Below, in pieces: positions 18,783 to 33,165 of a stretch of 64,000 bases of DNA. Each line of letters starts with the position of its first letter. Position 1 is the stretch's first letter. Under the pieces are notes generated by a model that had not been told where the DNA came from, made no database searches, and saw only the letters and a program-made list of their open reading frames with translations. The position numbers and the translations under genes were made by a program. The stretch comes from Ischnura elegans. Its lineage: Eukaryota > Arthropoda > Insecta > Odonata > Coenagrionidae. Where the stretch lies: contig NC_060252.1 in NCBI RefSeq assembly GCF_921293095.1, forward strand, positions 75,350,866 to 75,414,865, given 5' to 3'.

Positions 18783-19482
18783 TCCTTTCACTGCTGTGAA
18801 TGTACCTGGTACGTTCGCACGGCAGGCTGCTGTGAACGTACTTTTTCTTCCTCCCTGCCACGCACTTCGAAGTGTCCCTAATCCGGGACCCTTTCCTCGA
18901 CGAGCTCAGCCTCGCAGGCCCCTATCTTCGACCCTCCGAGCGGGGAGTCTCCCTCCCCAAATGTGACCGCTCTGACTGCATTTTGAAAATATATCAATCA
19001 ATGCGATCATCAAAAAATGATTGTTTGCATCGCACTCCTGCCAATCAGGCAATCAACTACGTCCTTGAACCGCGTTTTGCGATGAGAAATAACGATTTTG
19101 TTAACTTTGCTCAAAAGGCCATTTTCTGGTAGTCCTCAGGCACGTTTTCAGCAAAGTTAATAAAATAGTTATTTTTCATCGCAGAAACAGTTCAAATACG
19201 TACTTGATCGCTAGATTGGCAGGTGTGCGATGCAAACAATTATTTTTCGATGATCTGATTGATTGGTTGATTTTCAAATTGCAGTCAGAGCGGTCACTTT
19301 CGGGAGGGGATGGCCCAAGAGACGGACCAGCGTGGGTGAGCTAGTCGAGGAAAGGGTCCCGGATTTGCTACCCTACCGAGGGTGTACCACGCCCATCCTA
19401 GAAGTACCTGCTCCATGGCCCAACGAAACGCATTTTAACCGCATTTGAGGAGGTTTTCGGAGATTGAACAGCAGTGAAAGGG
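18783..19482. mobile_element. 700-bp palindromic MITE, TTAA target (piggyBac-type)
   Basis: Flanked by TTAA at 18779-18782 and 19483-19486. Ends are TCCTTTCACTGCTGT and ACAGCAGTGAAAGGG. Long imperfect inverted arms run from each end to an axis near 19130: GGGACCCTTTCCTCGAC at ~18888 pairs with GTCGAGGAAAGGGTCCC at ~19345, and GTGACCGCTCTGACTGCA pairs with its inverse at ~19280. The whole copy could fold into a hairpin. It inserted in the stop codon of the piggyBac-like gene. No coding capacity. Confidence 0.9.
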
Positions 19483-20702
19483 TTAAATATATCATAAAAA
19501 TTTGTAAGAATTTCTATAGAAATGTTTCAATTCTTCAATTAATCTTTCTCAAGTTATTATTTACGTTAAATATTAAACTTGGAATGTGATGAGCAAGCAG
19601 ATTATTACCATATGACATTTCCACCTAAATACCACTTCCTTGCAGTTGGGTAACAAAAGCACCTTCTGCAATTTGCAAAGTCTCCGGATATGTGATTACG
19701 GCCATTTCTAATATTACTCTCCAGAAGCTTGATCACCTCTGGAGACAGGGGCGGCTCCAGCCAGGGGGCGTGGGGGGCGCGCCCTCCCCCGCCCTGTGCG
19801 ATGACTGACGGAATTTTTTTGCTGCTTGCAATCTCCTCTTACCTATGCCAGGAAAGGCGAGAATGAAATGATGGCTCGTCACCCATTGTAATACCGAGTA
19901 TCAATTTGTGAATCGAAGCGCGTGGCCGAAGTCATCCCATTCTACGGTACATACATTCCTACAGCCAGAAAGAGTTTTTCTCGAAGTTGAGATGTTCCGA
20001 ATAATTTGCTTCACTATCGGCAGGCGAGTTTATTTTCTTTGCAGAAAATTTCTGCAACTATATATTCCTTAGATGAGCTTGCCAGACCTATGATTCGAAT
20101 TTGAAAGTCTGCAACTCCGACAACAGATTCATCGGTCGTTTCCACTCGTAGGCACGGTCAAGCAGCACAAAGGTGGAGCGCAGGTATCTGTTTTGCTGGC
20201 CTGCTGTTTGACGTTGGAGCTCTGTACAATTAGAGGTAAGGGTGGTAATATGAGCCATGTAGGTATTATGAGCCCCCACGTTTCTGGCCATACTGTGCAC
20301 ACCATCTAGTGGATATTTTTGCAAACACTATATTAAGTTCGTATTTATACCACTAGAGCGCTCTGGTTCATTTGTGGATGATAGTTGACGGTTGCAACAG
20401 TTGTTTGTGCTTTACATCATCTGAAGACTTTGAAAGGTACGTAGCTAGCCTTTAATTAAAATTACTGTTCGATAATATTTTCTCTTACATGCTATATTAT
20501 CTGATAGAGTAGGTTTTAAACTTCGACTTCATGTAGGTGATAAATAATTTACAGAGTAAAAAGTTAGGTTATTGGTCGATGAAATTCAACATGGCGATGC
20601 TGGTAATGTGAGCACCCTTCTGTGTCTGGTATATGAGCCCCAACGTTTGAGGGGCTCATATTACACACACTAAATCTTGTGTTCGTATTTTTATTGTTTC
20701 AG

Positions 20703-22569
20703 ATGCCACGAAAGGTTCTAGGCTCTAAACCTAAACCTAAAAGAAAAAAATGGAATACTGACGATATGGTAATGGCAATAAAGGCAGTTAGGAATAAAGA
20801 AATGGGCTTGAAAAAGGCTTCGAAGACATTTTCTGTCCCAAGACCGACTCTGCAAAGGCTTGCTCGAGTTGATAAACCACCGGAAGAAGCAGCTTCCACT
20901 CGCCTGGGAAGGAAGACTACAATGGAAGATGAGTTGGAAAAGGAGCTGGTTGAGTACCTGCTACTTATGGAGAGCAAATTTTACGGTCTTACCAGGCAAG
21001 ACGTTCGCAGAATAGCTTACCAACTTTGTGAAAGAAACGGAATCAAAAATCCATTCTCAAGAGAGGGGTTAGCTGGTAGGGCGTGGTTTGACCACTTCAT
21101 GAGGCGGCACAAGGATGTGTTATCAGTATTGAAACCTTCATCCACTTCATTTTCAAGGGCAAATGGATTTAACAAAGAGGCGGTAAACAATTTTTTTGAC
21201 ATCTTAGAAGCTGAGTATAGTAAACACAACTACCCTGCCGACAAATTTTTTAATGTGGATGAGACGGGAATCTCAGTGGTCCAAAGCAAAATCCCCAGAG
21301 TAATTGGTCTACGGGGAAAGAGACAAGTTGGGGCTCTTAGCTCAGCTGAAAGAGGTTCTCTTGTGACTGTTATCTGCTGCATGAGTGCAGGGGGCACCTT
21401 CATTCCGCCCATGTTAATTTTTCTACGGAAGAATGTCAGATCTTTTAATGAAGAGTGCTCCGCCAGGAGCAATTGCTAGGTGCCACCCATCAGGGTGGAT
21501 TCAGTCTAACTTATTTACTGATTGGCTACGTCATTTTATCGAGAAAACTAAACCCACAGAAGAAGATCCAGTGATTCTGATTCTTGATGGTCACAACTCG
21601 AATACGAAAAACATTGATATTGTGAATCTTGCAAGGGATAACTTTATATCAATCATAAGTTTGCCCCCACACACGTCACATAAGTTGCAACCGTTAGACA
21701 AGTCATTCCTGGGGCCTCTAAAACACCACTACGGCGAAGAAATACGTCTTTTTATTCGACATGGTCAAAAACGTGTGGGACCTTACGAAATTGCAGAGCT
21801 TTTGGGAAAAGCTTACTTGACTTGTCAGACGGGGTCTATAGCCGTATAAGGTTTTAAAACTACCGGATTGTTTCCATGTGATAGAAATGTTTTCACTGCT
21901 GCAGATTTCGCACCGTCATCAGAGGAGACGCTCAACATGGAAACCCTTCAATAAGCTAGGAAGAGGAACCACACCAATCCTCAAATAGACCTAGGACAAA
22001 ACGTTGGCAGATCTACTGAACTCTCAGAGGAGGACGTCAATGATCCTGAAGAGATCGATCAAATCCTAAACAAGGACAACGCACCCGAAATCGAGACTCA
22101 CTGACAGCCCAGCACATCCACCTTATTTCGACATTCCACAGAAGATTTTGCCCCTGCAGGTCCATCCGGTGAATGTGGTCAGTCTATACGAGAACAACGC
22201 TCTACTGTATCACCAAAGGATATATGGTCTGTGCCCAAACCTAAAAAAAAAAAGGTTTCAAACAAAGGACCAAAACCTTCAAAAGCTGCTCTAGTCACAT
22301 CATCGCCGAACAAAAATGCCCTCATTCAAGCTGCAGAAAAGGGGAAATTAGATGAGAATAACAAAAGAAAAACCAAAGAAAAGAAAAAATTAGAGCTTCT
22401 AAAAATAAAAAGATCACAGTCAAACGACCAGTAAAACGGAAACTTCTTGTAGACGACGAATATTCAGATAAATCGGACTGTTCCGTCAATTCTGGAGAGT
22501 CTGTTTTGGAAATGTCAATGGGCGTTGATAAATCCGGAGAAGAGCATACACCCTGTATGTTTTGTGAAG
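20703..22569 (+). pseudogene. pogo-like DDE transposase (main part)
   Basis: The first open frame (ATG 20703 to 21479) has an N-terminal psq-type HTH (NTDDMVMAIKAVRNKEMGLKKAS), a CENP-B-like HTH (GRAWFDHFMRRHKDVLSV) and the first catalytic Asp in FFNVDETGISVV. A frame change in 21430-21480 moves to 21433-21849, with VILILDGHNSNTKN (second Asp) and HKLQPLDKSFLGPLKHHYGE (third Asp). After further stops at 21847 and 21952 the basic region KPKKKKVSNKGPKPSKAA (22234 on) follows, another frame change near 22430, and the start of the PHD finger, PCMFCEG (22550-22570). At least four lesions, so this copy is inactive by itself. Confidence 0.9.
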
Positions 22570-22573
22570 GACT

Positions 22574-22862
22574 TGTGGCGGCACAATTCAAATCCGCGCG
22601 CCAGCCGTTGGTGCGTCTGGCGACCGGCAATTGTCGCGAGAGTTTGGAGACGCCACCGCCAGAGGTCGCAATGGTCGACCCACGCCGCTGACTGGGCACC
22701 GCCATTACTTTTCCGAGAGTCTGACCGAATCTTGTGAGCTGTACGCACGCTACCGTGACCACGCCAACCGGCGTTATTCTGTATCGAACGATCTATCACG
22801 AAAATACATTGTTATTGTTAAATTGGGGTGGTTTATTTGACGCTACTGCACCTTCCCCCTCA
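22574..22862 (+). repeat. 5' LTR
   Basis: 289 bp, starts TGTGGCGGCAC and ends CTTCCCCCTCA. It is the near-identical partner of 29347-29635 and is followed two bases later by the tRNA-Trp primer site. Confidence 0.93.
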
Positions 22863-22929
22863 AGTGGTGACCCCGACGTGATTATAGTGTTTTTTTTGTG
22901 ATTTTCGTGCATCGTGTAAGTTGGCGTCC

Positions 22930-25900
22930 AAAATGGCTGCCCCCGTGGACCAAGTCCCTCCAACCGGCGAGGCTTCAGTAAGTCGAGTAGCTATGCGTGT
23001 GCCTCCTTTTTGGCCGGAACGACCTGCACTTTGGTTTAGCCAGTTGGAGGTACAGTTTTCCCTCGCCGGCATCACAAACGAGCTCACCAAGTTCTCCCAC
23101 GTGGTGGCTCAATTGGACAACCGCCATGCCGTGGAAGTGGAGGACATTATAGTGAATCCCCCAAGTGACTCCCCATACAAGCGGATAAAGGACGAGCTGA
23201 TTTCACGTTTATCTACGTCCCAAGAGACGCGCATCCGCAAACTCCTCGAACACGAGGAACTCGGCGACCGGAAGCCGTCACAATTTCTCCGCCATATTTT
23301 TTATTTTTATTTTAAAGAAATATATCCACATACAGCATATGCCATTTTATAGTGGCCAGGTAACAATACATAAATTAGAGGACGAAGACGCAATATAACA
23401 TGTAGAAAACAATAATTACATTTACAAAAACAAAAGGACAACAAGAAACTGCAGTGACAGACTACTTCGGTGACAGATAGGATAGGGAAAGGGTTATGAA
23501 GGATTTCAATGGAAGTGCAAAGGGGTCGATGTGTGGAGGGAGTGAGTTCAACACAGAAGTAATGCGGTAGAAAAACGAGCGTTTAGTGAGGGAAAGTCTA
23601 GGAATGGGCATGTGGATTAGGGGATGAGAACGGGTAGGGCGGGGTGTAACTTTAAAATTGATAAAAGAGAGCAATGCTGGGCAGTCGATGGTGGAATTGA
23701 GAATCTTATAAATAAGTTTTAAATCAGCTGTGAGCCTATGGGTAGTGAGATTGGGGATGAAGAGGGAGGAGAGAATAGCATTAGTGGACATGTTGCGTAA
23801 ATGCGGTATTCTATTTTTTACTATATTGGCAAAGAAATTGCTGACACAGTTCAGGGATGAGAGGTTGGTTTGTGAAGAGATAGACCAGATGGGACCAGTA
23901 GGTAAGAATTGGAAGAATGATAGATAGTTTTAGAAAAATGCCTGGACTCTGTGATGAGTGTCATTACTCTTGGCCCCATTATCCTTTTTGGTGACTTAAA
24001 TCTCTCAATCCATTGGGAGTCTCCAACGAGTGGGTCTCCCGTGGACGCCCATGATGAGTACTTTCTCCAAAATTTCATTTACGCCCTTCATCTCTCCCAG
24101 TTCTGCAATGAATGGACACGAAACGCGGCAACGTTGGACTTCCTTCTTTCCACCACTCCCCCCGAGGCAATAACCCCCAGCAGAAACATCTTCGACTCAG
24201 ACCATGAGTCCCTTGACGTCATTTACAACTTTTCCAGCCCCAAGAAACACCGCGGGGTTCCACCCCGCCCTCTGAAGCCTTTCCTTGCATGGTCGAAGGT
24301 TTGCTGGGAGGTCGTAAACCGCTCCCTCGACCTCATACCCTGGTCACTGCTCTCCTCCATTACCCCCGAAGATGGAGTGGACTTCCTGTACGCCGTCATT
24401 GAAAGTGCCGTTAAGGATTTTGTGCCTATTGTTCAACCTAAATCTAAGAAATTCCCCTCCTGGTTTAAAGCTGACACCCTGCATGCTCTCAGAAACAAAA
24501 ATCAAGCGTGGTACCTCTACAAGACGACTCCGAACGAACATACTCGTCGCTCTTACACAGAGCTTCGTCGATTTTCTAAAGCTCTCATCCGTCGTGACCA
24601 CAAGGAATATGCGCATAGTGTCTGCTCATCTATCACCACCACCCCTAAAAAGTTCTGGTCTTTTGTGAATCGCCGCCGCAATCATTCTAGAATTCCGGAC
24701 TATGTTTATTATGAAAACAGTAACGCCGAGGGCCCTAATAGACCAAACTTGTTTGCTAAATTCTTCTCTGAATGCATGACGCCCCTCTCTTCCCCACCTC
24801 TCACCCATGATCACTTCCCTGCACCCATTTCCAGTAATTTCCTCTGTGAAATCCGAACCGACCCGCTTGAAGTTCTTAAATATTTACGCAAAATTCCCCT
24901 TCAACGTTCATCAGGCCCTGATGGCCTGAGTCCGATATTTGTTCACCATTGTGCTGAATCACTCTCCATTCCTTTAACTTTGCTTTTACACCGATGCTTT
25001 TCCCTTGGCTTTTTCCACCACAATGGAAAACTGCTAATGTTATCCCCATTCATAAATCCGGGCCAAAAAATGTTGCATCAAACTATAGACCCATCTCCTT
25101 ACTTCCAGTTCTCTCTTCTGTTTGTGAAAGAATAATCTTAAATCGACTATACTACTTCACCTCCCCTCATCTCTCTGATAATCAACATGGTTTTCTTCCG
25201 GGCCGCTCATGCATGACCAACTTATCCGTCTTTCAGCATAATGCCATTAACTCCATTAATAATAAATCACAGTTAAGACACCATTTTCCTGGATTTTTCA
25301 AAAGCTTTTGACTCTATCAATCATAGCCTCCTCCTCCACAAATTAGGTGAACGATTTAATATTTCTGGTAATTTCAAAAGTCTCCTAACTAGCTTCCTCA
25401 ACAATCGAACTCAAAGGGTTATTCTTTCTGGCTCACCTTCTCCTTGTTCTCCTCTGACATCTGGGGTTCCTCAGGGGAGTGTCCTTGGTCCTTATCTGTT
25501 TAACTTGTATATTGATGATCTTGCCTCTTTGCTACCTTCTTCCCAAGCTCAAACTCTCCTTTATGCTGACGATTGTAAATTGTTCAAGGAAATTCAAAAA
25601 CCATCTGATTGCCAAAACCTACAGGATGCCTTACGTCAGACATCGAATTGGTGTAATGTCTGGAATCTTGCATTAAACCCAGATAAAACCCAGATATCCG
25701 CTCTCTTGCGGGTAATTCCGTACCCGATGACTTTGTACGCACTCTTTGGGTGAATCGCTTGCCATCCTCCGCCCAAGCGATCCTGGCCACGCAGGATTCC
25801 ACGGATTTGGCGGGATTGGCGAAGCTGGCCGACAAGGTGTGTGAGGTGACGTCACACCCCCAGGTCGCTAGCGCCGAGGCGTATTCCGAGATGGCGGAAG

Positions 25901-26150
25901 TCCGGAAGCAGATGGCGGAGCTTACCAGGCAAGTCGCAGCGTTGAGCACTCGGTCTCGCGGTCGCTCGCGCTCCAAGAGCCGACCTCGAAATCGAAGCTC
26001 ATCCGGGAACCCTGATCCGCGGTATTGCTTTTACCAAGGGAGATTTGGTGCTGCTGCCAACAAGTGCCGCCCCCCTGTGCTTATGTGGCGGAAAACCCGA
26101 AGAGCAGCGGTTGATGGCGGCCGATGGCAGTTGCTCTACGCCCCGCCGCC
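22930..26150 (+). pseudogene. Gypsy gag region (fossil, interrupted by a LINE)
   Basis: The left part encodes a gag N-terminal domain of the kind found in CsRn1-type elements (PPFWPERPALWFSQLEVQFS, then LISRLSTSQETRIRKLLE). The right part resumes after the LINE with a Lys/Arg- and Ser-rich gag C-terminus (SRGRSRSKSRPRNRSSSGN). Gag packages the element RNA. It is not functional in this copy. Confidence 0.8.
23296..25706 (-). mobile_element. CR1/Jockey-type LINE with 5' inversion
   Basis: Two oppositely oriented pieces of one non-LTR element. On the minus strand, ~23935 down to 23296 holds the RT C-terminus (TADLKLIYKILNSTIDCPAL, then RSFFYRITSVLNSLPPHID) and an A-rich 3' tail at the left edge. 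On the plus strand, ~23951-25706 holds the endonuclease end (ILFGDLNLSIHWES, SDHESLDV) and RT (NYRPISLLPVLSSVCERI, FLDFSKAFDS, GVPQGSVLGP, LLYADDCKLF, LNPDKTQ). The segment between LNPDKTQ and the C-terminus is missing. This is the arrangement expected from twin priming. One frame change occurs at ~25080 and another near 25285. Confidence 0.85.
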
Positions 26151-29100
26151 TTTTCGTCATTGATGCCGCAACGAAGACAGAGTTTTTGGTCGACACAGGT
26201 TCCGACCTCTGTGTTTATCCCCGGGCGAAAGTGAAAGGACGGAAAGCTTAAGCCGCCTATCAGTTGTTCGCCGCGAACGGCACCGTGATCGCGACATACG
26301 GATGGATCGACTTGTCGCTCAATTTCGGTCTCAAACGCGACTTCCGCTGGCGATTCATCGTCGCGGACGTTGACAGACCGATAATTGGCGTCGACTTCCT
26401 TTCCTTTTTTAATCTACTTGTGGATGTTCGCGAGCGTAAATTAATCGACGGCATAACCTCTCTGGCGACCCGCGGCCTTGAGGTGACCTCCAATCACCCG
26501 CAAGTGAAGACTGTTGTAAATAGTTCTCGTTTTCACGCTGTGTTGGCTGAGTTCCCCAGATCACTCGGCCATCTGGGACCCCCAGCGAATTTCGTCACAC
26601 GACGATGCATCACATCAAGACGACACCGGGTCCACCAGTCGCCTGCAAGCCCCGCCACCTTGCACCGGATAAGGCGAACATCGCCAAACAGGAGTTCGAG
26701 GAGATGGTGCGGAACGGCACAGCGCAGCGCTCCGACAGCTGTTGGGCATCGGCACTTCATCTAGTGCCTAAAAAGGATGGTGACTGGCGCCCTTGCGGCG
26801 ACTACCGCGCACTGAACGCGCGAACCGTCCCCGATCTGTACCCGGTGCCACACATTGCGGACTTCGCCCACAATTTAGCCGGTAAGTGCGTGTTTTCCCG
26901 CATAGACTTAGTGCGTGCTTACCACCAAATCCCAGTGGCCCCCGAAGATGTCCCTAAAACCGCCCTCACCACTCCCTTTGGACTCTTCGAGTTCACACGC
27001 ATGCCCTTTGGCCTGCGCAACGCTGCACAGACTTTCCAGCGTTTTATCGACGAAGTGCTGCGAGGCCTCGATCACGCGTATGCGTACCTTGATGACATTC
27101 TGGTCGCATCGCGCGACGCCAATGAACACGAATGCCACTTGCGTGCTCTTTTTAAACGACTCAGTGATTTCGGTATTGTAATTAACCCGGCGAAATGTGT
27201 ATTAGGTGTTGACGAAGTGACTTTCCTTGGGCCTACAGTGACTGCCTCTAGCATTAAGCCCACGCCTAACAAAATTGACGCTGTGAAGTGCTACCCCATA
27301 CCCAAGACTGTCAGGGAACTACGTCAGTTCCTTGGGATGGTAAATTTCTATAGACGGTTAATCCCGAATGCCGCCGACGTGCAATCCCCCGTGTGTGAAG
27401 TGTTAAAGACAGGAGTGAGGGGTAGTGATGCCATTGATTGGACGGTTGCGTTAGACCGCGCTTTCAATGAATGCAAAGACGCTCTCGCGAGCGCGACATT
27501 CGTGGCACATCCCGATGTGCGATTGCCGCTGGCCCTTTTTTGTGACGCGTCAGATAACGCAATGGGTGGTGCATTGAATCAACGCGAGGGTGACGAGTGG
27601 AAACCACTTGGTTTTTTCACTCGTAAGCCGAAGCCGCCCCAGCGTAAGTACAGCCCATACGACTGTGAACTTCTTACCGTTTACGAAGGAGTGAAATATT
27701 TTCGACACATGTTGGAAGGGCGTGAATTTCGTATATTCACGGACCACAAACCCCTTGTTTACGCCTTTCAACAGAAGCCCGAAAAGTGTTCCCCCCGGCA
27801 GTTCCGGTACTTGAATTTTTTGGCCCAATTTAGCACCGACATTCGACACGTCGCCGGTCGGGAGAACGTTGTCGCGGACGGCCTTCCGCGAGTTGAAGCG
27901 CTCTCAGGTGGAATTGATTTTGACGCGCTCGCACGCTCGCAGGCGCAATTCTTTTCGAAGTGCGATGAACTTGGCAATTCCCTTAATTTAAATAAAGTGC
28001 GCGTCCCCGGATGCAATGGTGAAGTTTGGTGCGACGTTTCGACCCCAACGGTGAGACCTTACCTTACGGAGTCGTTCCGTAAGCCGGTGTTTGATTCCCT
28101 CCATCAATTGTCCCACCCTGGCATTAAGGCCTCCACCAAACTGATCTCCGAAAGGTTCGTGTGGCCGTCGATGCGGAAGGACTGCCGCACCTGGGCGCGA
28201 GCCTGCATCCCGTGCCAACGGTCCAAAGTGCATCGTCATACAGTGTCCCCCATCGGCAGTTTCGTTTCCCCATCGCAGCGCTTCGACCACGTCCACCTTG
28301 ACATCGTAGGACCCCTACCAGTGTCCAATGGCTACCGCTATTGCGTCACGTGTGTCGACCGCTACTCGCGATGGGCTGAAGCCATCCCAACAGCAGACGT
28401 AACAGCAGATACGGTCGCACGCGAGTTCTTTCGCGGCTGGATCTCGCGTTTCGGCACCCCGTTGATAGTCACCACGGACCAAGGCCGGCAGTTCGAGTCT
28501 GCTCTCTTTCACCGGCTTTCTGTGCTCACCGGTACCCGTCATCTGCGCACCACTGCGTACCACCCCGCTGCCAATGGAATTGTGTAACGATTCCACCGGC
28601 AGTTGAAGGCTGCTATCATGCGCCACGAGACCGACAGCTGGTACGACACTCTACCTGCTGTGCTTCTCGGCATTCGAGCAGCTTGGAAAGCCGACATCGG
28701 TGCATCACCGGCGGAACTTCTCTACGGAGAGCCTCTTCGCCTTCCTGGAGAGTTCTTCGCTCCTACCCAGCCTGACAACGAGGACGAGTCATTCGTCGCG
28801 AAGCTGCGCCGGCACTTCCGACGGATCCAACTCGTTCCCGCCTCGCATCACGGAGAGAGGCCAGTCTTTGTCCACCAGGACCTTCAGTCAGCCTCTCAGG
28901 TGTTCGTGAGAACGGACGCCACCCGGCCCCCACTGCAACCGCCGTACGTGGGCCCCTTCCGCGTCGTCCGCCGCGACGCCAAGTTCTTCGTGGTCGGCAT
29001 GAAGGGCAAGGAGAAGGCGGTATCCGTAGACCGCCTGAAACCATCGTACATCTTGGCAGCGGAGGACGGACGTCACGACGCCGGTGGTACATCGGGACCA

Positions 29101-29170
29101 CCGCCTGCCATCGACATCGCTGACCGATCCCGGACAGGCGCAACGAGCAACCCGCTCCGGGAGAAGGGTC
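26150..29170 (+). pseudogene. Gypsy pol region: protease, RT, RNase H, integrase (fossil)
   Basis: Protease with LVDTGSD near 26190; reverse transcriptase about 26.7-27.3 kb with LDDILVAS as active-site box and [12 protein letters not shown] after it; RNase H about 27.5-27.9 kb ([20 protein letters not shown]); integrase about 28.05-29.1 kb with a zinc-binding H-H/C-C region ([20 protein letters not shown]), a catalytic core ([26 protein letters not shown]) and a C-terminal domain (PYVGPFRVVRRDAKFF). Domain order and residues fit Metaviridae. The region looks largely preserved but not whole. Confidence 0.88.
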
Positions 29171-29346
29171 CATTTCCCCAAGCACTTGGAGGAGTTCGCC
29201 ACCTAGGCGATATATTTTTTTGCAATACCACTGGCGGAGGTCACTGCACTGTGGCTTCCATTCCCCCCCCCCAACCCTATTGATTGTCACTAATTACTTT
29301 TTTTTCTCAAAATTCTTTAGTGGCCTTAAGACTGCGGAGGGGGTGA

Positions 29347-29635
29347 TGTGGCGGCACAATTCAAATCCGCGCGCCAGCCGTTGGTGCGTCTGGCGACCGG
29401 CAATTGTCGCGAGAGTTTGGAGACGCCACCGCCAGTGGTCGCAATGGTCGACCCACGCCGCTGACTGGGCACCGCCATTACTTTTCCGAGAGTCTGACCG
29501 AATCTTGTGAGCTGTACGCACGCTACCGTGACCACGCCAACCGGCTTTATTCTGTATCGAACGATCTATCACGAAAATACATTGTTATAGTTAAATTGAG
29601 GTGGTTTATTTGACTCTACTGCACCTTCCCCCCCA
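29347..29635 (+). repeat. 3' LTR
   Basis: 289 bp, starts TGTGGCGGCAC, preceded by a polypurine tract and followed by the GACT target duplication. Confidence 0.93.
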
Positions 29636-29639
29636 GACT

Positions 29640-29759
29640 CTACTCAGCAGATCAGCATGGAGAACTCTGGGTACAATGTATGATGTGTGAAATGTGGGCG
29701 CACAACGACTGTGCTGGTACTGAAAAAGATGTCTATGTTTGCGATTTTTGCAGACCATA
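29640..29759 (+). pseudogene. PHD finger, C-terminal part of the pogo-like transposase
   Basis: Reads ADQHGELWVQCMMCEMWAHN then DCAGTEKDVYVCDFCRP and a stop. Together with PCMFCEG at 22550-22570 it supplies the C4-H-C3 ligands of a PHD finger. PHD fingers usually read histone H3 tails, so a role in target choice or chromatin tethering is possible but unproven. The Gypsy element split the finger between its first Cys pair and the rest. Confidence 0.85.
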
Positions 29760-30332
29760 AGTTATTTTCTGACTTTTGTACACTGCTAAGGTTTTGTAAT
29801 TACTAAATTTCTATGTCATTTTTCTTTGTCATATTTCATATAAGGATATTTGTGAGTATGATATTTTATGACACTGTCATCTATGTATTCACTTGAGGGG
29901 CTCATAATACAATCACAGAACATTTATTAAAAAATACGCCTTCTTTTGATTTTTAATTTATATCTTACTTTTTGTGTGTTTAATCAACTCCATATTTTTT
30001 TATATTCACCGAATGATATATACAAAGTTCAACTTATATACATTAGTTAAAACCAGTAAGAAAAAATTATTTTAGTAAAAATGTAAATAGGGGCTCATAT
30101 TACCACCCTTACCTATACGAGCAAAAATTGTTGAAGATTTCCTCTGACGACACATTCTAAAGTTGAAGACTTTCTCTCTGAAACGGTTGGAGCAATTCAT
30201 CAATCACACGTGAGCCTGGACAGTTGCATTCGTTTTGGGGTTGTATTCTTTTTTTATGTTATCAAAATGATTTCTCTTTCTTTGTGTATTTGTAGATCTA
30301 AATTTATTTGCACAGATATGCAAAATGGTTAG

Positions 30333-31085
30333 GTGGCTAATAAGGAAGAAGCCTCGGCTAGAAAACGATTCAAAGGAACAAGATTCGACATCTATTCCCG
30401 CGACTTTTTAAAGCATCAAGTAAACGTAATAAAACCATTGTTGATATCTTAGTTCATCAAATGACAGGTAACTGTGAGACTAGATGGGTAGAAAGGCATA
30501 AAGCTATTGTAACTTTTAGAGACGACTTACATGATATTGCCAAAGCTCTCGAAAAAGTGTCAAAGTGGGATGATTATAAAACGGCAACTAAAGGAAGACG
30601 TTTATTGTTATCAATTTGTAATTGTGAATTCATTTGAACTGTATATAGTCAGAGTGATGTTTTGAGTGCAATTTATATTTTAAGCAGATATTTGCAAAAT
30701 GAGACTAATGTTTTTCAAGCTAAAAAAAAAAAGTTGACCGAACTTTTGAAGTACTAAAGGATAAGCGGATGAACTATGAAAAAACAATTTTCTCTGGAAT
30801 TTTTGCAAAGGCTAAGAAAATTATGGAAGAAATGGACATTCAAATCCGCATTCTACGTGCAGCCAATCGACAAAAGAATCGAGCAAATTACCCGGCTACC
30901 AATGATGAAGACGATATAATCGCGTATTTGGAAAAAATAATCTATATTCCCATTTTAGATTACGTAAATACGGATATCAAGGACAGACTTGCTGGAGAGT
31001 CAATAGTGCTTCAAGTTGAATACACTAATCCCAGCTGTTTTCATGGAAATAAAAAATTCGGGCTCGTTAAAATGCATGCTTGAAA
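30333..31085 (+). pseudogene. hAT (Zaphod/ZMYM-type) transposase remnant
   Basis: Successive short open pieces read TRWVERHKAIVTFRDDLHDI (30480 on) and ALEKVSKWDDYK, then an open frame 30769-31083 with MNYEKTIFSGIFAKAKKIMEE, RILRAANRQKNRANYP and YIPILDYVNTDIKDRL. These match the central part of hAT transposases of the Zaphod/ZMYM class. The catalytic N-terminal half and the C-terminal dimerisation domain are lost, and frames change at the A-run near 30722. It belongs to the outer hAT shell. Confidence 0.75.
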
Positions 31086-32026
31086 AAATGTGATAAATAT
31101 GCACCGTTATTGAAAAAAAAATAAAAGTACAATGTTAACGGAATTAGATGAGAACTTTTTTGAAAAAAAATTCCGGAATTTAATGACATGAAACCAATGA
31201 AAACTGCCATGGAACTTTGTGTGTGCACATGATTGTATTTATAAATACTTGATAATAATCGCTATAATAACTTCTCAAAAATATTTTCCAAGATATTCAA
31301 ATGAAATGCGGCTAATGATTTTACTGTCGACTTCAGTTGTATTTTCTTGATCAATCATACAGTAGTACCTGAAATCCAAATGTTAAATACTTATGGGTAA
31401 AATTGGAATTTAATATATTGAAGAGAAAACTTCATTTCGCCCGCTAAGCACTTTTGTCAAGGGGTATAAAATGCGAACTCGCATCACGTACCGTAGACTA
31501 CCCTCTATTTAAAAATGTTACGCTTATGTCTGCTTTTTCTCTCTCAATTTTTGATCTACAGGGATGGGGTTTGCTGCATTTGGTGTGGATTCTCTGTTTT
31601 CATGATTTGATCATAATTGAAAGTGCATAAATAATTCACGAGTCGTAAATTATACTCACAATTTTCCCATAAGATTGCACAGCGTTTTTTTTTTATTTTC
31701 TCGCACTATTTCCCTCAACTCTCCATCGAAATCTACCATTCAAACGTCTATTCAAAGCTTGTGTCTCCCGCTTGGAACGAAAAATATACAGATCGTTTGA
31801 AATTCCACACGTAAATCGGAAATTACTTTTACAACTTTTTCCTTAAAATAACACGGGCTTTTGCAATTTTCTCGGTGCAACAATTTCAACAATTTGTACC
31901 AATTCCTTCATTCTTTCTCAACTATAATGCCGAAACTCTTATTTTGACGCTTGTATGCCACATCATGAGAGAGAGAGAGTGGGGGGAGGGGTAAGCAGCC
32001 CGTCGCGCCCCCCCCTCAAGGAAATC
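31086..32026. other. Non-coding right part of the hAT shell
   Basis: AT-rich with no coding trace I can support. The last 60 bases before the TIR are C/G-rich (GCGCCCCCCCCTCAAGG), mirroring the GGGGGGCGCGCCC just inside the left TIR. Confidence 0.5.
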
Positions 32027-32041
32027 CTGGAGCCGCCCCTG

Positions 32042-33165
32042 TCTCCCTGTCCCCTGTAATGAATCGCTGAAGTCATGGCAGTCTGCAGTCGCAACAAACT
32101 TTCCGAAACCTCACAGAATTAAGGAGCCTTGATGAAAGGCATTATTATAAACTCTATAAACTCGAGCAAGAGATATTAATTTTTCACACTCTCCAGTGAA
32201 ATGGCCGAGTAGTTGCTCCTAAATATACATATGTGAACCTAAGGATCTGTTGCAGAGTTCACTTCCTCAACCAGGAGAGGTGAAGCACATAAACCTTGTC
32301 AAAAATTTAATTAAAATGTTTAATTGTAAAAAAAATACACAATTCACACTTAAAAAAATCTAAGTGGTAACATTCTGTTTTTAACCACACCAGACTGCTA
32401 TTTATTTTTATACCTTCTCGTCAATAGTATAGGGGTTTGAATTCTTTGTTGGCTATCATCCACAGATCGGTAAGCATGATAAGGTGCTCTTCATTTTTTT
32501 GTGTCAGTCAGTCCTTTCCGTTGTGTCGTATAATGTTATGTGAGTGTGCAGTAAATTATTCGCTCAAGTGAAATTGTGTTTCATTGTCCACAATGACGTC
32601 TCACTGCATTCCAACCAGCAACTAGAATGTTATATGATGGCAACACACACCACAAGTTGCTTACAAAATAGTTACCTATATTCCACCATATTTTAAATAT
32701 ATTGTCAAAATTATTTGCAGTCATTTAGTGCGATAAATTAATTATCTACACTCTCCATGTTTCAAGTTGCATTAAATTGCTAACTTAGTAGTCAGCAATA
32801 TCCTATAAATTCTAAACTTCCATGTTCCATACAACCCTTTTAGTCGACTTTTACGACAAGCAGGGATACTGCGGGAGAATTCTATATCCCCCAACCCGCA
32901 GGGGTACATTCTTGCAAAGAGACGCCCTTCCCCAAAAAAAAAAAAAAACAAAAAAAAAAAAACCAACTACCATGTGTATTAAATGAACACACATCAGTCT
33001 GAAATTAGACCATTCTCAAGAGAGAAAGAAAGGTAACTCAGCAAGTTCAGTTTACCAACGTGATTTCACTGAATAAAAGGATTACAACTATGGGCTTGAA
33101 TAGTAATAATAAGATAAATGCTCCAATAGCTGTAATGTATTTACTAGTCCGCAGTACACCAACCC
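32042..33165. other. Gene-free flank with a conserved repeat trace
   Basis: AT-rich. At 32835-32960 TTAGTCGACTTTTACGACAA and a short hairpin (ACTGCGGG ... CCCGCAGGG) precede two A-runs of 12 and 13. This looks like the tail of a dispersed repeat, family unknown. Nothing else recognised. Confidence 0.4.

Follow-up and report, generated by a model that had tools for sequence, protein, structure and literature searches.

The stretch of Ischnura elegans DNA analysed here (the window) comprises 64,000 nucleotides of contig NC_060252.1, positions 75,350,866 to 75,414,865 (G000:C7:75350866-75414865), and was compared with the 1.72-Gb assembly of 110 contigs to which it belongs. Between positions 19746 and 32041 of the window, four mobile elements lie one inside the next: a hAT-type element holds a pogo-type element, which holds a Ty3/Gypsy element, which in turn is interrupted by a long interspersed nuclear element (LINE). 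Nested transposable elements are common, and no element at this locus is of a new kind. The less ordinary part, and a mildly interesting one, is the innermost LINE, which is partly inverted and comes from a family with almost no target-site duplication (TSD). The features of the nest are, in order along the window:

19746..32041, hAT-type element, outermost shell, in halves 19746-20232 and 30116-32041; no direct TSD, ends common to family copies
20231..20232, TA target duplication, left of the pogo-type element; empty site in hAT copies L004, L008 and L011
20233..30115, + strand, pogo-type Tc1/mariner element, second shell, interrupted at 22573/29636; domains in two broken frames
22570..22573, GACT target duplication, left of the Gypsy element; empty site in pogo relatives L032 and L033
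22574..22862, + strand, 5' long terminal repeat (LTR), 6/289 differences from the 3' LTR
22865..22883, + strand, putative primer binding site of tRNA-Trp type, two bases past the 5' LTR
22888..23295, + strand, start of gag, DUF7041 (Pfam PF23055, E=5.1e-30), interrupted by the LINE
23294..23297, possible ATAT target duplication, left of the LINE
23298..23925, - strand, LINE 3' segment with A-rich tail at its left end; 97.4-98.7% identical to 23/24 fetched copies, 96.3% to L063
23926, inversion junction with one extra base, placed by comparison with L071 and L077-L081
23927..25687, + strand, inverted LINE 5' segment, end of the endonuclease and reverse transcriptase (RVT_1); ~99% identical and colinear in L077-L080
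25675..25696, 11-bp tandem duplication (AAACCCAGATA twice) at the putative second-strand priming junction; contains the filler 25688-25693
25694..25697, possible ATAT target duplication, right of the LINE
26551..28587, + strand, pol with reverse transcriptase, RNase H and integrase (Pfam)
29347..29635, + strand, 3' LTR
29636..29639, GACT target duplication, right of the Gypsy element; same comparison as on the left
30116..30117, TA target duplication, right of the pogo-type element; same empty-site comparison

Order of the insertions

Borders were placed by BLAST comparison of fetched copies of each element family with the window, about 40 candidates being scored for each border or end query. 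The full nest occurs once among the matches scored, and seven queries crossing a border or an end found a full-length match at the nest locus alone, so chance is no issue. Three of the four borders are crossed by uninterrupted relatives in the same genome: hAT copies without pogo, pogo copies without Gypsy and Gypsy copies without LINE support the order of the three inner insertions. A reading of the letters alone (the sequence-only reading) had proposed both the nest and this order and had suggested a search for empty sites; that search returned 21 hAT, 2 pogo and 8 Gypsy copies lacking the inner shell, and the four-level nest is real. The shells differ in their TSDs, which are TA for pogo, GACT for Gypsy and at most ATAT for the LINE.

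Copies of the hAT family begin or end at 19746 and 32041 or within a few bases of them, as first read; they span 19746 to 20230-20232 and resume at 30116-30117. The pogo-free site is seen directly in 21 of 26 fetched hAT copies (window excluded), its sides sharing two bases (TA) in 19 of them and lying one base apart in L007 and L018; the other five (L010, L014, L017, L026 and L028) do not reach or keep both sides. In L004, L008 and L011 the empty site reads CAATTACGAGC, and the window at this place reads CAATTA, then GAGGTAAGGG ... CCCTTACCTA, then TACGAGC. Because the empty site lacks GAGGTA and TACCTA, both belong to the pogo element. Its termini are 20233 and 30115, 6 bp further out than the 20239 and 30109 given at first. 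The terminal inverted repeat measures 24 bp, with 23/24 matched, and the two broken frames contain HTH_psq (2.9e-9), HTH_Tnp_Tc5 (1.3e-5) and DDE_1 (5e-16). Four other members of the family were found among the best 40 of 82 candidates, one of them at 73%. The copy on C2 (L033, L082) keeps TACCTA at its right end and on the left has TA followed by GAAAGGG, three bases shorter than the window; from those on C19 (L083) and C3 (L084) the left terminus has been lost.

Both pogo copies that reach the Gypsy site (L032 and L033) are uninterrupted there and read GAAGGACTCTACTC, with GACT once, and the window has GACT on both sides of 22574-29635. These ends, the duplication and the LTR difference of about 2 percent are as the sequence-only reading gave them. 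The LTRs begin with TG and end with CA, and their differences amount to 2.1% (exact 95% interval 0.8-4.5%). With LTRs and the order reverse transcriptase, RNase H, integrase, the element is of the Ty3/Gypsy kind; its frames change several times.

Anatomy of the innermost LINE

The LINE consists of two fragments of one element on opposite strands at a single target site, the anatomy to be expected of a twin-primed copy. Its A-rich end falls at 23295-23299 in relatives, consistent with the left border first proposed (23296). The right border had been set at 25706 and the element taken as colinear; both points fail. All 38 listed LINE matches, from the best 40 of 219 candidates, cease at 25687; six filler bases follow (25688-25693), Gypsy sequence resumes at 25694, and 25706 lies within it. 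The claim that each shell has its own ends thus survives for hAT and Gypsy and needs correction in detail at the pogo and LINE borders. All eight Gypsy copies showing both sides (L034, L036, L037, L040, L041, L044, L046 and L047) run from 23296-23297 straight to 25694-25696, with 2-3 bases common to the two sides.

Of the 24 fetched LINE loci, 17 contain the breakpoint at 23925 as well as the one at 25687, and in 17/17 the two lie on one strand, 233 bp apart. In the window they lie on opposite strands and those 233 bp are missing. The inverted piece is colinear throughout in L077-L080, where 14-18 of 1762 columns are mismatched; for L081 the identity is 81%. ATA at the right end of the LINE is common to the target sequence next to it, and the 34-mer 25655-25688, which reaches one base beyond the breakpoint and whose last base is not T, occurs once in the genome. 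RVT_1 is found at 4.4e-37, and Exo_endo_phos_2 stays just below threshold (27.2 bits against a cut-off of 27.4). Among solved structures the reverse transcriptase matches those of LINE-1 ORF2 and R2, which does not place its clade; it presumably belongs on the CR1/L2/Jockey side.

Origin of the nest and of the inverted LINE

We consider, with good confidence, that the locus is best explained by four successive insertions, the last by target-primed reverse transcription with twin priming. A hAT element would have come first; a pogo-type element would have entered it at a TA, the Gypsy element would have entered pogo at GACT, and the LINE would have entered the gag of the latter. The first LINE strand would have started at the A-rich tail, near 23298, and run for ~630 nt. 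The second-strand nick would have primed on the same RNA inside the reverse transcriptase gene, ~870 nt from the RNA 3' end, through a microhomology of ~3 nt (ATA) and with one 11-nt slip, and its product, copied in the other direction, would measure 1.76 kb. The two products would then have been joined with one extra base and the 233 nt between them lost. It is from this anatomy that we infer two cDNAs, and with them twin priming as the process, the role of the microhomology and the 11-nt slip.

Twin priming is favoured because one event covers the tail and 3' end, the inverted piece and the lost RNA between them, and the model predicts 5' inversion together with an internal deletion (PMC2837659, in its available text). 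The same inverted part and 233-bp loss would also fit a two-break rearrangement, in which a colinear 5'-truncated LINE came first and its 5' part was later inverted and partly deleted, and an internal junction devoid of microhomology suits such a history as well. One of the breaks, however, would have had to hit the LINE/Gypsy border within 6 bases with no loss of Gypsy sequence, at the very place where the eight uninterrupted Gypsy copies meet with 2-3 shared bases; a later inversion therefore seems very improbable. Less probable still, to the point of being hardly credible, are two separate insertions, of a minus-strand 3' fragment and of a second, plus-strand LINE. Both pieces do come from a family of at least 81 copies carrying the probed reverse transcriptase 18-mer, but the second LINE would have no 3' end or tail of its own, would end inside the reverse transcriptase gene at 25687 and would exactly abut the first one at its 5' end, and in the uninterrupted Gypsy copies there is one insertion point only. 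Either history is disfavoured because it needs coincidences at the Gypsy border.

Several observations speak against four insertions with twin priming as the last. The LINE family shows no TSD above chance: in 18 of the 24 fetched copies plus the window (the other six have no 5' end inside the locus) the mean is 2.47 bp and the maximum 5 (19 copies), against 2.03 and 5 in 342 swapped pairs, so that the ATAT of the window may itself be chance. No microhomology is seen at the internal junction, where there is one extra base. ZfL2-1, a LINE with short TSDs, gave no 5' inversions in cultured cells, and an overhang of ~5 nt was suggested to be of insufficient length for a second priming of reverse transcription (both PMC4245944, in the portion available). 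Finally, the hAT element is flanked by TCTGGAGA on the left and TCTCCCTG on the right, with no direct 8-bp TSD.

This last point bears on the outermost border, where a single simple hAT insertion is not demonstrated, since the TSD is absent; the border may reflect ectopic recombination between copies, an unusual insertion or an assembly join. A join made in the assembly, or a fusion of two hAT copies by ectopic recombination, we regard as a serious possibility, if somewhat short of an even chance. The three hAT copies with both flanks available (L008/L022, L004/L023 and L014) all have a perfect 8-bp TSD (GGATACAC, ATAGGGGT and TGTGAATG), and the joined outer flanks (400+400 bp) gave no match across the join among the best 40 of 1568 candidates, hence no second copy of the outer site; 39 of the 41 rows of that query come from a high-copy repeat in the left flank, and for that reason it does not show an empty site to be absent. 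Both hAT halves, on the other hand, match one family end to end, their terminal repeats match each other, and the order of the three inner insertions is unaffected either way. The name hAT is given from the ends and the family TSDs: the first 15 bp of the terminal inverted repeat are perfect (15/15) and have the motif CAGGGGCGG, presumably typical of hAT elements, and no Pfam hAT transposase match was found in two frames of the window and two of L022.

Inversions in the LINE family

The reverse transcriptase 18-mer occurs at 82 places of the genome, which represent 81 copies, L065 holding two. With matches under 85% dropped, the 24 copies that had been fetched through their 3' ends include one, L065, whose 5' end is inverted, over 77 bp. 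The first 100 of 269 places of a 3' marker were listed, and 37 of the 18-mer places lie in the part of the genome so covered; among the matches listed, 27 of these have the marker as a same-strand partner, and none has it on the opposite strand. The ten unpaired places include three that are sense-colinear by their matches, four that are colinear on reading (L085, L089, L090 and L091) and three that break off (L086, L087 and L088). Over ~2.9 kb read upstream, L087 contains a 43-bp inverted piece and L086 none; L088 has an opposite-strand 3' piece 2.1 kb off, across other repeats, and is only a possible additional case of twin priming. Of the 45 places left, one is in the window, two are in L065 and 42 lie elsewhere; each of these 42 was fetched and continues colinearly over the ~150 bp examined. 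Inverted copies with adjoining pieces thus number 3/81 including the window, the only one of kilobase size. Besides the window they are:

C6:103339727, L065, LINE copy with a 5' inversion of 77 bp
C2:120885244, L087/L135, LINE copy with a 5' inversion of 43 bp

The 77-bp inversion of L065 could be explained by snap-back as well as by twin priming. We do not propose a priming hot spot: in the coordinates of L071 only 15 nt separate the window (1036) from L065 (1021), but the end of L087 is at 943 and the cases are too few. An antisense LINE piece adjoining L054, 64% identical, was taken as belonging to another LINE family.

Divergence and relative age

Changes private to the window number 12/479 in the left hAT half (against 7 other copies) and 28/1889 in the right (12 of 19 copies offered, 7 that covered under 95% being dropped). 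In the LINE they number 6/596 in the 3' piece (21/24 copies, 3 dropped on the same ground) and 12/1760 in the inverted piece (L077-L080, L081 left out). The hAT total of 40/2368 differs from the LINE total of 18/2356 (p=0.005), a rough value, as are the two that follow, the copy sets being unequal in size and choice. A single LTR branch, for which half of the LTR difference was used (3/289), is separated neither from the LINE (p=0.49) nor from hAT (p=0.62), and the pogo piece differs from its two relatives by 2.6-2.7%. The divergence order agrees, roughly, with the nesting, and the inner three elements cannot be spaced in time; the relative clock first proposed keeps its direction, while divergence separates hAT from the LINE only. 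In three of the four sets the window tops all compared copies in private changes (12 against 1-7 in the left hAT half; 6 against 0-5 and 12 against 2-3 in the LINE), and the LINE of the window therefore does not rank with the youngest copies sampled.

The Gypsy element and the surroundings of the nest

The Gypsy element is probably of the CsRn1 type. We take its primer binding site to match tRNA-Trp. In the frame 25687-26163 the gag spacing CX2HX9CX3C can be made out by eye, with two of the four residues replaced, and a scan of four of the frames showed no envelope domain. CsRn1-like elements are characterized by a tRNA-Trp primer binding site, a 4-bp TSD and the gag motif CX2HX9CX3C (PMC2582038, in the text available). 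The window copy is like them in its 4-bp TSD, its presumed primer binding site and the frames without envelope, and unlike them in its degenerate motif and its gag interrupted by a LINE.

At L031 (C10:66295162) an LTR 98% identical to that of the window has no Gypsy internal match within ~1.35-1.5 kb on either side, and is a probable solo LTR. On C2, near 119.67-119.70 and 121.51-121.54 Mb, there are mirror-image sets of LTR-end and hAT matches ~24 kb apart, which suggests an inverted duplication.

Left of the hAT element (19718-19745), the 8-mer TCTGGAGA recurs in inverted form, as TCTCCAGA, 12 bp farther from the element, and TCTCC also opens the right flank (32042-32049). The joined outer flanks form the palindrome GGAGATCTCC. 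An inverted TSD (GGAGA/TCTCC) was not adopted, as it covers 5 bp only and the two sides disagree in the outer 3 bp. Just left of the nest, at 19000-19260, a 71-nt inverted repeat (85%) and a 42-nt one (88%) are nested and hairpin-like. The high-copy repeat of the left flank, 19346-19490, was found at 39 places among the matches listed, with 80-92% identity, the 1568 candidates being those of the whole query.

Discussion

Nested elements serve for relative dating, the older being interrupted by the younger (PMC2517846, available part); the present locus is of the same kind as the clusters treated there, with a depth of four levels, each of a different element type.

Twin-primed, 5'-inverted human L1 copies were reportedly described by Ostertag and Kazazian in 2001. 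As far as the available text of PMC2837659 goes, the outer junctions of human L1 loci show microhomology and the internal junction lacks it. The LINE of the window resembles them in its tailed 3' segment, inverted 5' segment, internal deletion and outer microhomology, and in the lack of microhomology at the internal junction; it differs in its family TSDs of 0-5 bp and its TAAAA-type tail, and need not be an L1. With ZfL2-1 it shares short TSDs (~5 bp in that element), and extra nucleotides at the 5' junction are reported for the related ZfL2-2; unlike ZfL2-1, it carries a 5' inversion, of 1.76 kb (PMC4245944, available portion). Outside human L1, the same portion of that paper gives a single inversion, in one Nimb-2_DR insert from a family with TSDs of ~12 bp. 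A limited literature search, mainly of titles and abstracts, found no description of twin priming in a LINE with short TSDs; in PMC5389967 and PMC2718515 the term stands only in the reference lists, in the parts available.

The window LINE thus appears to be a natural case of second priming in a short-TSD element, a case with small numbers, in which the overhang at insertion need not have had the length of the TSD. Tentatively, and with somewhat less than even confidence, we propose that LINEs with TSDs of at most ~5 bp can prime a second time on their own RNA and yield kilobase 5' inversions, with pairing of as little as 3 nt. If so, the insertion in the window and the two family copies with smaller inverted ends, one of them compatible with snap-back, would contradict the proposal that an overhang of ~5 nt is too short. 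The nest itself adds a base-exact example of a known structure and orders four transposable element families in one genome. The literature that we found on 5' inversion concerns mostly human L1; here a young LINE family with very short TSDs offers several inverted copies in one assembly, in which inversion can be counted directly.

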